Assembly (NCBI RefSeq): GCF_900104255.1
Contig: NZ_FNKZ01000001.1
Location: 1,890,001-1,954,000 of the forward strand
Length of the DNA: 64,000 bases
Source: Pseudoxanthomonas sp. CF385
GTDB lineage: Bacteria > Pseudomonadota > Gammaproteobacteria > Xanthomonadales > Xanthomonadaceae
Direction of reading: 5' to 3'
Part shown: positions 49,533-54,893 of the stretch, piece after piece
How positions within the stretch are numbered: the first letter of the stretch is position 1
Layout of the letters: each line of letters starts with the position of its first letter
Position numbers and translations under genes: made by a program
Notes under the pieces: generated by a model
Database searches by the model: none
What the model was told of the DNA's origin: nothing
The model's input: the letters and a program-made list of their open reading frames with translations, nothing else

Positions 49533-50606
49533 TCAGTGGCCCTGCCGGCGGAGCGTGTCCAGCTTGGCCTGGTAGAGCGCCCGGGTATCGCCTTCACTGA
49601 GTTCGCGCGCATGGGCCAGCGCCTTGCCGGCACGCCGGGTGTCGCCCTGCAGGAAATACACGCGCGCCAGGCCGAAATGGAACCGGTGTTCCCCGTCGTA
49701 CAACTGGATCGCCTTGCGGTAGTGCTCGGCCGCCTGCGCGAGGTCGCCGTCACGCTCGAAGCCCGCGGCCAGCAGGAAATGATGGAACGGGTCGCGGGCC
49801 TGCACGGCGTCCAGCCGCTTCTGCAGCGGGCGGGCGGCCTCCCTGTCGCCGGCGCGCTGGTAGAAGGTCACCAGGTTGAACAGTGCGCCGGGGTTGTCGT
49901 GGTCGAGGTCGAGCGCGTGCTGGTACGCCTGTTTGGCGCGTGCGGCGTCGCCGCCGCGCAGATAGATGACGCCGGTATTGCTCCAACTGGTGGCATAGCC
50001 GGGATCGAGATCCAGCGCGATCTCGGCATGACGGCGCGCGTCTTCCACGGCGCCCTGTTCGAGCAGTTCGGCCGCGCGGTTGTTGTAGTAATGCGCGATC
50101 AAACGCTCGTCGCGGATGCGCTCAGGCGGTTCGCGGGTGATGACTTCGTCCCAGGCCACGTCGACGGTGAAACGCCGTTCGCGGATGCGCACGCCGGCAT
50201 TGACGTGCTGGGTGCGGTAGAGCGTGTTGCGGTCCTGGCGCCAGGCCAGGGTTTCGTCGACCTGCTGGGCGTAGGCCTCCAGGCCCGCCTCGCGCGCCAG
50301 CGCCACCGTCAGCAGGGTGAAGCTCATGCAGTTGGCCTGGCGCGTGGCATAGGCCTCGGCCACGGTGTGGTTGGCGTCGGGTTCGTAGCGCATGCCCAGC
50401 CCTTGCGGGCTGAACAGGAAATCGACCATCCGCTCGAGGCGCGCGCTCGGCAGGCGGGCATGGGCGAGGACCTGCTCACGGAACTGTTGGCGCAGGGGCT
50501 CCGGCACGGCCAGCACGTCGGCGGGCGCAGGGGGCGGAGCGGGCTGGGCGAACGCCGACACGACCGACGACGCCAGCAGCAGGGTGCCGAGCCATTTCGT
50601 CCACAT
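49533..50606 (-). CDS. Secreted transglutaminase-like/TPR protein
   Basis: This 357-residue protein has a signal peptide (LGTLLLASSVVSAFAQ). A transglutaminase-like region follows, with ATRQANCMSFTLLTVALAREAGL (about 88-110) and the likely catalytic Cys in NCMSFT. From about residue 190 there are four or five TPR units (for example AEIALDLDPGYATSWSNTGV). It is of a kind often annotated as bacterial transglutaminase-like with TPR. Its role is unknown. Confidence 0.82.
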   Translation of the reverse strand: MWTKWLGTLLLASSVVSAFAQPAPPPAPADVLAVPEPLRQQFREQVLAHARLPSARLERMVDFLFSPQGLGMRYEPDANHTVAEAYATRQANCMSFTLLTVALAREAGLEAYAQQVDETLAWRQDRNTLYRTQHVNAGVRIRERRFTVDVAWDEVITREPPERIRDERLIAHYYNNRAAELLEQGAVEDARRHAEIALDLDPGYATSWSNTGVIYLRGGDAARAKQAYQHALDLDHDNPGALFNLVTFYQRAGDREAARPLQKRLDAVQARDPFHHFLLAAGFERDGDLAQAAEHYRKAIQLYDGEHRFHFGLARVYFLQGDTRRAGKALAHARELSEGDTRALYQAKLDTLRRQGH

Positions 50607-51232: not shown

Positions 51233-51814
51233 TTGAAATACACGAGTGCCAATGAGGGTGTCGGCAAGGCGTTGCCGGTGCTCATGACGTCCCGTTTCCG
51301 CCTGCGGCCGCTGGAACGCCGGGACCAGGCGTTCTACGCGTCGATCTATACGGACGAAGCGCTCATGCGGTTCGTCGGGGAGCCGATGACGCAGGCGGCG
51401 GCGGAGGACGCGTTCCGCGCGTTCCTGCAGTCGAACAGGCGCGGCGATCTCCATCGCGCCTGCTGCTGGGTGGTCGAGGACGGCGCCGCGGGTCCGACGC
51501 CCGTCGGATTGCTGGCGTTGATCCCGCATGCCGCGGCGGCGGAGATCGGGGTGATGGTGATCGACGCCTGGCAGGGTCGCAAGGTGGCGCAGGAGACCAT
51601 CGGGTTCCTTTCCGGATACCTGTTCGATCATTCCGGCTGGACGCGCACCTTCAGCCGGCATGTGCGGGCCAACGATGCGGGGGCAGGCGTCATGCGCCGG
51701 CTCGGGTTCCGCGAGATGCAGGAGGTGCCGGGCGGCAGCGCTTTCCGGGGCTGGGAGATGACGTGCGAGGCCTGGCGCGTGCGCGAAGACGCGACCGGGC
51801 GGGTGTCGGCGTGA
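51233..51814 (+). CDS. GNAT acetyltransferase coupled to the borosin methyltransferase
   Basis: This 193-residue protein uses a TTG start with AGGGGAA upstream. It has a RimJ/RimL-like GNAT domain: FRLRPLERRDQAFYASIYTD, EIGVMVIDAWQGRKVAQET (acetyl-CoA loop) and RHVRANDAGAGVMRRLGF. Its TGA overlaps the GTG of the next gene (GTGA), so translation is coupled to the borosin N-methyltransferase. This suggests it acts on the same peptide or on its export or immunity. A role in maturation is only an inference. Confidence 0.8.
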   Translation: MKYTSANEGVGKALPVLMTSRFRLRPLERRDQAFYASIYTDEALMRFVGEPMTQAAAEDAFRAFLQSNRRGDLHRACCWVVEDGAAGPTPVGLLALIPHAAAAEIGVMVIDAWQGRKVAQETIGFLSGYLFDHSGWTRTFSRHVRANDAGAGVMRRLGFREMQEVPGGSAFRGWEMTCEAWRVREDATGRVSA

Positions 51815-52614
51815 GCGCGGCGGGCGATTCGAAACCGCTCGACGGCACGCTCGTCTGCGTAGGCGTGGGGATGACGCTGGGCGCGCATCTCGCCCCGCGT
51901 GCACGCAGCCACATCGAACAGGCCGACATCGTGTTCAGCGCCATGTCCGACCCGATCGTGGAGTTGTGGGTCCAGGGCATGAACCCGGATGTCAGGAGCC
52001 TCCAGCCGCTGTATCGCGAAGGCAAGCCCCGCCGCGACACCTACCGCGAAATGGTGGAGGCGATGATGGTGGAAGTTCGCCGCGGACGTCGCGTCTGCGG
52101 CGCGTTCTACGGCCACCCGGGTGTCTTTGCCCAGGTGCCGCATGCCGCCGTGGCGCAGGCACGCACAGAGGGCTACGTGGCGTCGATGGAGGCCGCGGTA
52201 TCCGCGGAAGACTGCCTTTACGCGGACCTGGGCATCGATCCCGGGGCGGTGGGCTGCCAGCATTTCGAGGCCAGCCAGTTCATGTTCTACCTGCGGCGCG
52301 TGGATCCTTCCGCCTACCTGATCCTGTGGCAGATCGGGGTGGCGGGGGACCTCACCACCGGGCGCCTGTCGACCGCGGCAGGGATGAAGGGCTTGCTGGT
52401 GGAGCTTCTGCTTGCGGACTACCCGCCGTCCCACGAAGTGATCGCCTACGAGGCCGCCACCCTGCCGATCGCCTCGCCGCGGATCGAGCGGTTCCCCCTG
52501 GACCAGCTGCCCGTGGCGGCGTTGACGACCGCGACCACCCTGGTGATTCCGCCCGCCGCGCCCATGCGGCGCAACGAACGCATCCTCGAACAGCTCCGCC
52601 TGATGGGGGGCTGA
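51811..52614 (+). CDS. Split-borosin peptide alpha-N-methyltransferase (tetrapyrrole-methylase fold)
   Basis: This 267-residue protein (GTG start, coupled to the GNAT gene) has the TP-methylase fold with the features of the OphMA/SonM group. LVCVGVGMTLGAHLAPRARS is at the start and IEQADIVFSAM follows. The conserved RRDTYREM lies at 74-81 (Arg and Tyr line the methyl-transfer pocket), and YGHPGVF at 100-106. Later come GCQHFEASQFMFY and HEVIAYEAATLP. No precursor is fused to its C-terminus, so it is of the split type described in Shewanella as SonM with SonA. It installs backbone N-methyl groups on a separate precursor. Confidence 0.88.
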   Translation: MSAAGDSKPLDGTLVCVGVGMTLGAHLAPRARSHIEQADIVFSAMSDPIVELWVQGMNPDVRSLQPLYREGKPRRDTYREMVEAMMVEVRRGRRVCGAFYGHPGVFAQVPHAAVAQARTEGYVASMEAAVSAEDCLYADLGIDPGAVGCQHFEASQFMFYLRRVDPSAYLILWQIGVAGDLTTGRLSTAAGMKGLLVELLLADYPPSHEVIAYEAATLPIASPRIERFPLDQLPVAALTTATTLVIPPAAPMRRNERILEQLRLMGG

Positions 52615-52747
52615 GCGGCCATGCCCGGTCATGGCACGGGCATGGAAAAGTGAGTATTGTCGCGCTGGGGGGTTGTCCCTGCGGAGAGCCGCGGGCGCCG
52701 ACGGGCAACCGGAAGTTCGTATTCATACTTTCATTTGGGGAAATGGC

Positions 52748-53023
52748 GTGTCCAATGCAATTCGATTTCTGGAATCCATGGGGGCATCCGCCTCGCTGCG
52801 TGGAGCGGCGGATTACGCGGCCGCGGTAGCTGCACTCGAGGTGGAGCCTGCCCAGCGTGCCGCCTTGCTCGGCCGGGACGCCGATGCGCTCGCCAGGCTG
52901 CTGGATGGTCGCCCGGCGATGTTCTGCATGATCCTCGCGCCGGACGAGGGCAAGGAAGACGAAGCGCAGGAACAAGCGGACGAGCAGACGGGTGGAGACG
53001 AAGAGCCCGGCGAAAAGGAGTAG
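52748..53023 (+). CDS. Split-borosin precursor peptide (binding domain plus core)
   Basis: This 91-residue protein starts at GTG, with GGGGAA six bases upstream. Residues 1-54 are a helical domain (SNAIRFLESMG, ADYAAAVAALEVEPAQRAALL, DADALARLLDG) resembling the SonA borosin-binding domain. A short hydrophobic stretch RPAMFCMILAPDE (55-67) follows in the position of the SonA core, which is the likely methylated segment. The rest is a very acidic tail (EGKEDEAQEQADEQTGGDEE). It lies 133 bases after the methyltransferase gene on the same strand. Confidence 0.75.
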   Translation: MSNAIRFLESMGASASLRGAADYAAAVAALEVEPAQRAALLGRDADALARLLDGRPAMFCMILAPDEGKEDEAQEQADEQTGGDEEPGEKE

Positions 53024-53072: not shown

Positions 53073-54893
53073 ATGAAACTCGGGAAAGGACACGCCTTGT
53101 GGGCCGCCGCCGTCATGGCATGCATATGCGCATGGCCGGCACAGGCTCAGGTTTCATCGGACATCGATGCGTTGATCAAGCAGGCTGAGGCGATCAAGAC
53201 GTCCCAGCCTGCGAAGTTCTACGACGTGCTGGAACGCCTCGAGAAGCGCGTCGAGGAAGCGACGCCCGAGCAGCGCCTCAAGCTGAGGCTGCTGCGGGCG
53301 CACGGCTTCCTGATGAAGGGGAAGTCGGAACCCGCGATCCGCGAGCTCCGGCAGATCCAGCAGGAAACCAAGGATCCGGAGATGTTGTTCTGGACCGGTT
53401 CGCTGCTCGTGAACACCTACGCGCTGACACGCAAGTTCGAACAGGGCCTGACGACCCTCAACGAAATCCTGCCGCTCGCCACCAAGGTCGAGAAGAAGGA
53501 CGTACGCCATCGCGGCTTGCTGGTCGCGGGCCTGCTGTACAACCAGGTCGGCGAGTATGCGCTCGGCCAGCAATACGCCCGCCAGGTGCTGGCGGACACT
53601 CCTGAGGGACGCAACCAGTGCGCGGCCGGCAACCTCGTCGCCGAAGCGGCGCTGGGCCTGAAGCAGGCGCCTTCGGAGGAGATGATCTTCCGGACCATCA
53701 AGTTCTGCGAGGAGCAGAAGGAGCCCATCCTCGGCGGACTCACGCGGACCTATCTGGCGCGCAAGTGGGTGGACGACGGCAAGATCGATCAGGCGATCGA
53801 ACTGCTCGAGCGCTACCTGCCGACCGTCACCGCGACAGGCTATCCGCTGGTCATCAGCGAATACCACGCGATGCTGGCCAGCATGTACCTGAAACTCGGC
53901 GACATGCGTACCGCGCAGACGCACGCGGACGAGGCCGTGAAGCGGGGCATGGGCATGACCTCGCTGCCGTTGGTCGTGGCCTACAAGTCGCTGTACGAGA
54001 TCGCTAACAAGCAGGGCCACGCCGAAGTCGCCCTCCTGCGCTACCAGCAGTACGCCGAGGCCGACAAGGCGTACCTCAATGACGTGAAGACGCGCCAGCT
54101 CGCCTACCAGATCGTCCGCCAGCAGATCCTGCAGAAGACGCAGCAGATCAGCATGCTGGATCAGGAGAACCAGGTGTTGCAGCTGCAACGCCAGGTCGAC
54201 CAGCAGGCGGCGCAGAACACCCGGCTCATCGTGATCCTGCTGATCGTGCTGGTGGCCTCCATCGGCTACTGGGCCTTCAAGATCAAGCGCGTGCAGCTGT
54301 CGCTGAAGAAGATGGCCGAGACCGATGCCCTGACCGGCATCTGCAACCGCCACCACTTCACCATCCGCGCCGAGCGCGCGCTGGCCGAATGCGCCCGCAA
54401 CGGCGAGCAGGCCGCGCTGATCATGTTCGACCTGGACCACTTCAAGAACATCAACGACCGTTTCGGCCACGGCACCGGCGACTGGGCGTTGAAGGAAGTG
54501 TCCGAGGCCAGCAAGGGCTTCTGCCGTCGCATCGACGTGATCGGCCGCCTCGGTGGCGAAGAATTCGCCATCCTGATGTACGGCTGCGATCTGCGTGCCG
54601 CCGCCCGCGTGGCCGAGGACTGCCGTGTGCGCCTGGCGCAGATCGACACCCGCGATACCGGCCATGTCTTCGCCATCACGGGCAGCTTCGGCGTGACCTC
54701 CAGCATGCAGTCCGGCTACAGCCTGGCCAAACTGCTCTCGCACGCCGACAAGCAGCTTTACCGCGCCAAGCACCAGGGCCGCAATCGCGTCTGCGTCTAC
54801 GAACCCGCGCACGAACACGCGCGCGACGCCGGCAGCAACGTGCTGGAACTGCCTTCGCGCGAAGGCCGCGCCGAACACCACATCGGCGCCTGA
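53073..54893 (+). CDS. Periplasmic TPR-sensor diguanylate cyclase
   Basis: This 606-residue protein starts at ATG with CAGGAGAAGG upstream. A signal peptide (MACICAWPAQAQ) is followed by a TPR-like helical sensor (about 40-390), a coiled coil, one membrane segment (LIVILLIVLVASIGYW) and a GGDEF domain with GGEEF. The I-site RRID precedes it at the correct spacing, so both synthesis and product inhibition are expected. It is convergent with another diguanylate cyclase. Confidence 0.92.
   Translation: MKLGKGHALWAAAVMACICAWPAQAQVSSDIDALIKQAEAIKTSQPAKFYDVLERLEKRVEEATPEQRLKLRLLRAHGFLMKGKSEPAIRELRQIQQETKDPEMLFWTGSLLVNTYALTRKFEQGLTTLNEILPLATKVEKKDVRHRGLLVAGLLYNQVGEYALGQQYARQVLADTPEGRNQCAAGNLVAEAALGLKQAPSEEMIFRTIKFCEEQKEPILGGLTRTYLARKWVDDGKIDQAIELLERYLPTVTATGYPLVISEYHAMLASMYLKLGDMRTAQTHADEAVKRGMGMTSLPLVVAYKSLYEIANKQGHAEVALLRYQQYAEADKAYLNDVKTRQLAYQIVRQQILQKTQQISMLDQENQVLQLQRQVDQQAAQNTRLIVILLIVLVASIGYWAFKIKRVQLSLKKMAETDALTGICNRHHFTIRAERALAECARNGEQAALIMFDLDHFKNINDRFGHGTGDWALKEVSEASKGFCRRIDVIGRLGGEEFAILMYGCDLRAAARVAEDCRVRLAQIDTRDTGHVFAITGSFGVTSSMQSGYSLAKLLSHADKQLYRAKHQGRNRVCVYEPAHEHARDAGSNVLELPSREGRAEHHIGA

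Follow-up and report, generated by a model that had tools for sequence, protein, structure and literature searches.

A split borosin locus of Pseudoxanthomonas with a TPR-GGDEF partner: a candidate peptide signal and its receptor

What purpose does a bacterial borosin serve, and what does its genetic neighborhood say about it? The question is raised by a 64,000-nucleotide stretch of Pseudoxanthomonas sp. CF385 (NZ_FNKZ01000001.1, positions 1,890,001 to 1,954,000, forward strand; hereafter, the window), in which genes for a borosin alpha-N-methyltransferase (MT) and a separate precursor peptide are followed by a gene for a protein with a TPR domain, a transmembrane (TM) segment, and a GGDEF domain. 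The parts of the papers considered here assign bacterial borosins no biological role. Computation established the identities of the parts, their constant pairing, the swapping of output domains, and the pattern of alleles. Since a peptide-receptor pair with a modifying enzyme is the best account of the last three, we favor it, and the sequences make it reasonably probable that the locus encodes a borosin peptide that serves as a signal, together with a TPR receptor that senses it and has cyclic di-GMP (c-di-GMP) as output.

A split borosin pair

The MT and precursor genes comprise the following features:
51811..52614, + strand: SonM-like peptide alpha-N-methyltransferase, GTG start, 267 aa (phmmer, Pfam)
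52748..53023, + strand: borosin precursor, GTG start, 91 aa
52748..52909, + strand: binding domain, residues 1-54 (AlphaFold2 [AF2] helices; VIA alignment; hhalign with the SonA family)
52913..52948, + strand: putative core PAMFCMILAPDE, residues 56-67 (from alignment with SonA)
52928-52930 and 52934-52936, + strand: predicted N-methylation sites M61 and L63 (from the SonA alignment)
52949..53020, + strand: acidic tail, residues 68-91 (sequence; pLDDT below 50 at residues 71-85)

Judged by its sequence, the MT is a SonM-like borosin methyltransferase. The initial annotation of this DNA described a 267-residue protein of the TP-methylase fold with the borosin motifs RRDTYREM, YGHPGVF, and FEASQFMFY, and all three are present in the translation of 51811-52614. 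Pfam recognizes TP_methylase (E 2e-18), and the proposed comparison with SonM gave a phmmer match at E 6.8e-75 and 50% identity. All 25 PDB sequences that match the MT at E<=1e-3 are borosin methyltransferases. Residues Y58, R67, Y71, and Y93 of SonM, which are among those mutated in PMC8429565, are identical in the aligned window protein; the active-site residues of SonM/OphMA-like enzymes are thus kept.

The 91-residue separate frame had also been described, as a GTG-started gene easily missed by annotation, and it is found as described. Among 39 homologues, 24 begin with MSNxIxFLE, and 6 are 81-aa forms begun at an internal ATG, one of which (P0004) matches the window protein exactly; annotation does, then, often overlook the GTG start. 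The suggested layout of helical domain, core, and acidic tail agrees with the AF2 model (mean pLDDT 69.4), which has helices at residues 3-13, 20-28, 34-41, and 45-51 and a disordered tail.

Pfam and NCBIfam scans of the precursor gave no meaningful match (best E 0.36), and searches of PDB with the single sequence or the A1 profile did not match SonA. The link to SonA therefore needed a profile-profile comparison, in which hhalign aligned the precursor family with the SonA family across the binding domain and core (probability 90.3; E 1.5e-6, the value for a single comparison). M61 and L63 align with L63 and I65, the methylated residues of SonA (PMC11285071), and the core is predicted to be N-methylated at these two positions. 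The expected structural match of residues 1-54 to a borosin-binding domain was borne out only in part: VIA aligned residues 1-57 with OphMA, weakly, and Foldseek returned nothing for the precursor model at E<=1e-3.

With an MT that matches SonM and a separate precursor whose family matches that of SonA, the split arrangement put forward earlier is upheld, and assignment of the locus to split (type IV) borosins, with a borosin binding domain in the precursor, is supported at the sequence level. The likeness to SonM/SonA, as far as the passages of PMC8429565 describe that pair, covers the separate MT and precursor, the active-site residues, and the binding domain plus core. The window precursor differs in its Cys-containing core, in its long acidic tail where SonA has a short C-terminus, and in matching SonA by profile only. 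A conserved Cys occurs in the core of many precursors.

A constant sensor partner

The next gene starts 49 bp downstream of the precursor:
53073..54893, + strand: TPR-TM-GGDEF protein, 606 aa, candidate receptor
53148..54227, + strand: predicted periplasmic TPR sensor domain (AF2 pLDDT 94.2; VIA, Foldseek; topology from hydropathy alone)
54303..54797, + strand: GGDEF domain with a GGEEF motif (TIGR00254 at residues 411-575; motif survey)

The initial annotation mentioned neither this gene nor the GNAT gene upstream of the MT. Across 111 sensors, hydropathy places a TM segment after the sensor in 110 and a hydrophobic N-terminus in 100 (the window sensor's own N-terminus scores 1.49 against a cut of 1.5), and the TPR half is predicted to be periplasmic. 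The VIA list for its model is headed by six Rap (Rap-pheromone) entries, and NprR is also among the best structural matches, but the fold is generic. At the sequence level, the TPR half had no specific match in NCBIfam or PDB. In the same genome, the 36 other matches to the whole protein all start at residue 361 or beyond, that is, at the GGDEF end. The protein may be the receptor of the peptide. A Cys pair at residues 183 and 212 (53619-53621, 53706-53708) is kept in 108 of the 111 sensors.

How constant is this partner? Loci were gathered by MT similarity only: 110 in total (39+40+8+3+20, the last 20 chosen by hand before their context was seen), or 100 after removal of 10 duplicates. One locus with a precursor match and no MT (L100) was not counted, and the short loci L001-L060, L149-L160, and L164-L167 were unused. 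A TPR sensor lies within 2 kb of the MT on the same strand in 93/100 loci, the figure we quote first because a 310-bit MT cut was chosen after the data were seen; GGDEF is in the same frame in 89/100. The four sensor loci that lack it are two of a kinase type (L137, L141), one at a contig end (L175), and one not scanned (L163). All seven loci without a sensor (L096, L143-L148) have low-scoring MTs, as does L163, which has one. Thinning to MTs less than 78% identical leaves a sensor in 57/64 loci. A genome of 3.9 Mb with 39 GGDEF domains does not give 93/100, and chance neighborhood was therefore rejected.

Among 61 relatives, 36 have the MT; the sensor occurs in all but one of these (35) and in none of the genomes without an MT. 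In the exception (G019), a diverged sensor is fused to the MT. With the A1 profile, precursors turned up in 31 of these 36 genomes and in none of the rest, so the pairing of MT and precursor recurs in related genomes, as the reading in the initial annotation requires. An iterated profile finds precursors in 91/100 loci (L089, L125, and L136 have a sensor and no precursor found), a count that is not independent because a frame had to lie close to an MT or sensor to be accepted. Sensor matches sit at MT loci except for two short weak matches and one genome (G056), whose precursor-sensor pair lies about 87 kb from its MT (L100 7840-8145, - strand; G056:C8:292626-294090).

An even sample of the class had an MT match in 10/369 genomes. 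Beyond Pseudoxanthomonas, hosts include Lysobacter, Luteimonas, Luteibacter, Shewanella, Colwellia, Alteromonas, Thalassotalea, and others. The sensor is present at the Shewanella sonMA locus too, as represented by L168: with an MT 99% identical to SonM, it has the order MT-SonA-TPR-GGDEF, directly downstream as in the window, and nine other SonM-type loci share it (in L175 the contig ends inside the sensor gene). From L168 the gene is also expected next to sonMA in S. oneidensis MR-1. A second Shewanella paralogue, with ten loci, shows the order MT-precursor-TPR-GGDEF, and its precursors resemble the window type. Neither "GGDEF" nor "diguanylate" occurs in the main text of PMC8429565, and our searches of an open-licence library found no text on an unfused TPR-GGDEF partner or a signaling role of borosins.

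MT-precursor-sensor is the commonest gene order; the sensor precedes the MT in L090, L091, and L095. In three same-genus genomes, a TPR-GGDEF-borosin MT fusion (L092 8103-10745, L093 8031-10643, L094 8054-10600, all - strand; Pfam scan made on L092) has a SonA-like precursor upstream. PMC11395268 lists borosin types 0-X and mentions a GGDEF domain in the legend of Figure 1, so a GGDEF-containing borosin is already published. That architecture, as the legend gives it, resembles the fusions in joining borosin and GGDEF, whereas the window TPR-GGDEF is a separate gene.

In L137, L141, and one of the two L142 sensors, GGDEF is swapped for HisKA, HATPase, and receiver domains, giving TPR sensor-hybrid histidine kinases beside borosin MTs:
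L137 5298-8375, + strand
L141 9871-13128, + strand
L142 9477-12446, - strand

Precursors and sensors are equal in number in the multi-copy loci L076, L077, L126, L129, and L132; sensors outnumber precursors in L066, L071, L095, L099, L133, L134, L142, and L174, and precursors outnumber sensors in L122, L131, and L187. The distant, sensorless MTs of L144, L145, and L147 all have a protein of 440-490 aa nearby, apparently from a single family, and in L144 and L145 a transporter-like gene adjoins the MT (by eye).

Variable sensors and conserved outputs

Do precursor and sensor vary together? We compared 14 syntenic Pseudoxanthomonas loci by median pairwise identity. Within the same protein, the TPR sensor half stands at 47% and the GGDEF half at 96%. 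Medians for the rest of the cassette are 71 (MT), 36 (binding domain, with one start, L075, trimmed too early), and 56 (core); those of the flanks are 89 (thioredoxin), 88 (LigT-like), 90 (M13), 81 (next-door diguanylate cyclase, DGC), 75 (the 56227 gene), and 67 (the TPR gene at 49533). Against the window, ten divergent alleles are 17-67% identical in 40-residue blocks 1-7 and 80-100% in blocks 9-13. The precursor and sensor half are thus hypervariable, and the output half and flanks conserved, as in a polymorphic peptide-signal locus.

Core and sensor distances are correlated (Mantel test, r 0.55, p 0.0002), and r stays at 0.54-0.55 when controls are applied; linkage may contribute to this. 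The core correlates also with the binding domain (0.47), thioredoxin (0.30), and GGDEF (0.26) and is uncorrelated with the MT (0.11) and the next-door DGC (0.02). Silent differences are high in the MT and sensor (pS 0.69 and 0.63 vs 0.29-0.47), so exchange of old alleles, not fast amino-acid change alone, is the likely source of the pattern.

We also considered whether sensors always outpace GGDEF domains, and rejected this: in two controls from the same genomes the effect is mild, with 70 (sensor) and 85 (GGDEF) in another TPR-TM-GGDEF protein and 82 and 82 in the next-door DGC, not 47 and 96. G022 and G020 are nearest to the window genome by the control TPR protein (94, 93) and flanks, yet carry foreign borosin sensors (45, 46), and the more distant G030, G015, and G023 (72, 72, 69) carry its sensor allele (91, 91, 89); as a species marker, however, the control protein is itself imperfect, with a sensor-GGDEF identity correlation of 0.20 and a two-peaked GGDEF. 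Elsewhere the contrast is weaker: 32 vs 57 in SonM orthologues (flanks 73-81), 42 vs 57 in the second Shewanella paralogue, and 36 vs 75 in Colwellia loci. The GGDEF domains of the control cyclase (L193 227-2248, - strand; L196-L208) fall into two classes, 93-97% and 73-76% identical to the window genome, which do not track their own sensor and look like domain exchange.

Hypervariable cassettes between conserved flanks occur also in kin-discrimination or bacteriocin-like systems. Here the peptide would harm non-kin, with the TPR protein as the matching immunity protein or a warning sensor. The cassette fits such a system, but outputs of the GGDEF and histidine kinase kind suit signaling better than immunity, and we regard this explanation as improbable.

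A possible signaling role and the GNAT neighbor

How might such a peptide act? In the reading we favor, the MT would dock the helical precursor domain and N-methylate the hydrophobic core, with M61 and L63 as the predicted sites. A protease would release the modified core, which would be moved across the inner membrane and there be bound as a ligand by the predicted periplasmic TPR superhelix that the next gene encodes. Binding would shift the diguanylate cyclase output, c-di-GMP, up or down.

The steps of release and export invite another explanation, namely that the precursor, once methylated, is retained intracellularly and acts as a protein partner that regulates the cyclase or another protein, with no free peptide. 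No protease or exporter was recognized nearby in the survey of neighbor families, which were left unannotated, and the precursor has a long acidic tail and no signal peptide by eye. However, covariation of the core with the predicted periplasmic half, not a cytoplasmic one, would then be left unexplained, and we give retention of the precursor very little credence.

In peptide-receptor pairs such as ComX-ComP and AIP-AgrC, peptide and receptor vary together between alleles. The locus resembles ComQXP and Agr in its order of modifying enzyme, precursor, and receptor, with a variable enzyme-to-sensor stretch and a conserved output half; it differs in its enzyme chemistry, TPR sensor, and GGDEF output, and in that signaling is here proposed. 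RRNPP receptors (Rap, NprR, AimR) share the TPR superhelix. These receptors are cytoplasmic, whereas the window TPR belongs to a membrane cyclase and is predicted to face the periplasm. With a TM segment after the sensor in nearly all cases, we do not class it as an RRNPP member, and a PDB sequence search found no match of the TPR half to RRNPP receptors.

It is about an even call whether many bacterial split borosins, SonM/SonA included, are backbone-N-methylated peptide signals with allele-matched periplasmic TPR receptors and c-di-GMP or histidine-kinase outputs, a Gram-negative counterpart of ComQXP built on borosin chemistry. If so, they would extend the repertoire of Gram-negative bacteria by a class of signals made from modified peptides, with the matching receptors, and tie the chemistry of ribosomally synthesized and post-translationally modified peptides to c-di-GMP control. 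The constant TPR-GGDEF partner, the swapped outputs, and the core-sensor covariation make the role of bacterial borosins directly testable.

One further gene adjoins the cassette:
51233..51814, + strand: GNAT acetyltransferase (Acetyltransf_3, E 1.9e-19), sharing 4 bp with the MT start

A GNAT gene lies immediately 5′ of the MT on the same strand in 49/100 loci and is itself hypervariable (median identity 34 in 13 of the 14 syntenic loci); for these reasons it may be a second tailoring enzyme acting on the peptide. A tailoring gene would also suit an ordinary split borosin, that is, a secreted bioactive peptide whose co-transcribed TPR-GGDEF protein responds to a different stimulus and regulates production or lifestyle, and borosins are described as natural products in the passages of PMC8429565. 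Such a borosin does not predict core-linked sensor variation with a constant GGDEF, or the exclusive shared presence and absence of MT and sensor, and we consider it rather unlikely. Beyond the MT, sensor, and GNAT, none of 15 listed neighbor families exceeds 8/61 representative loci.
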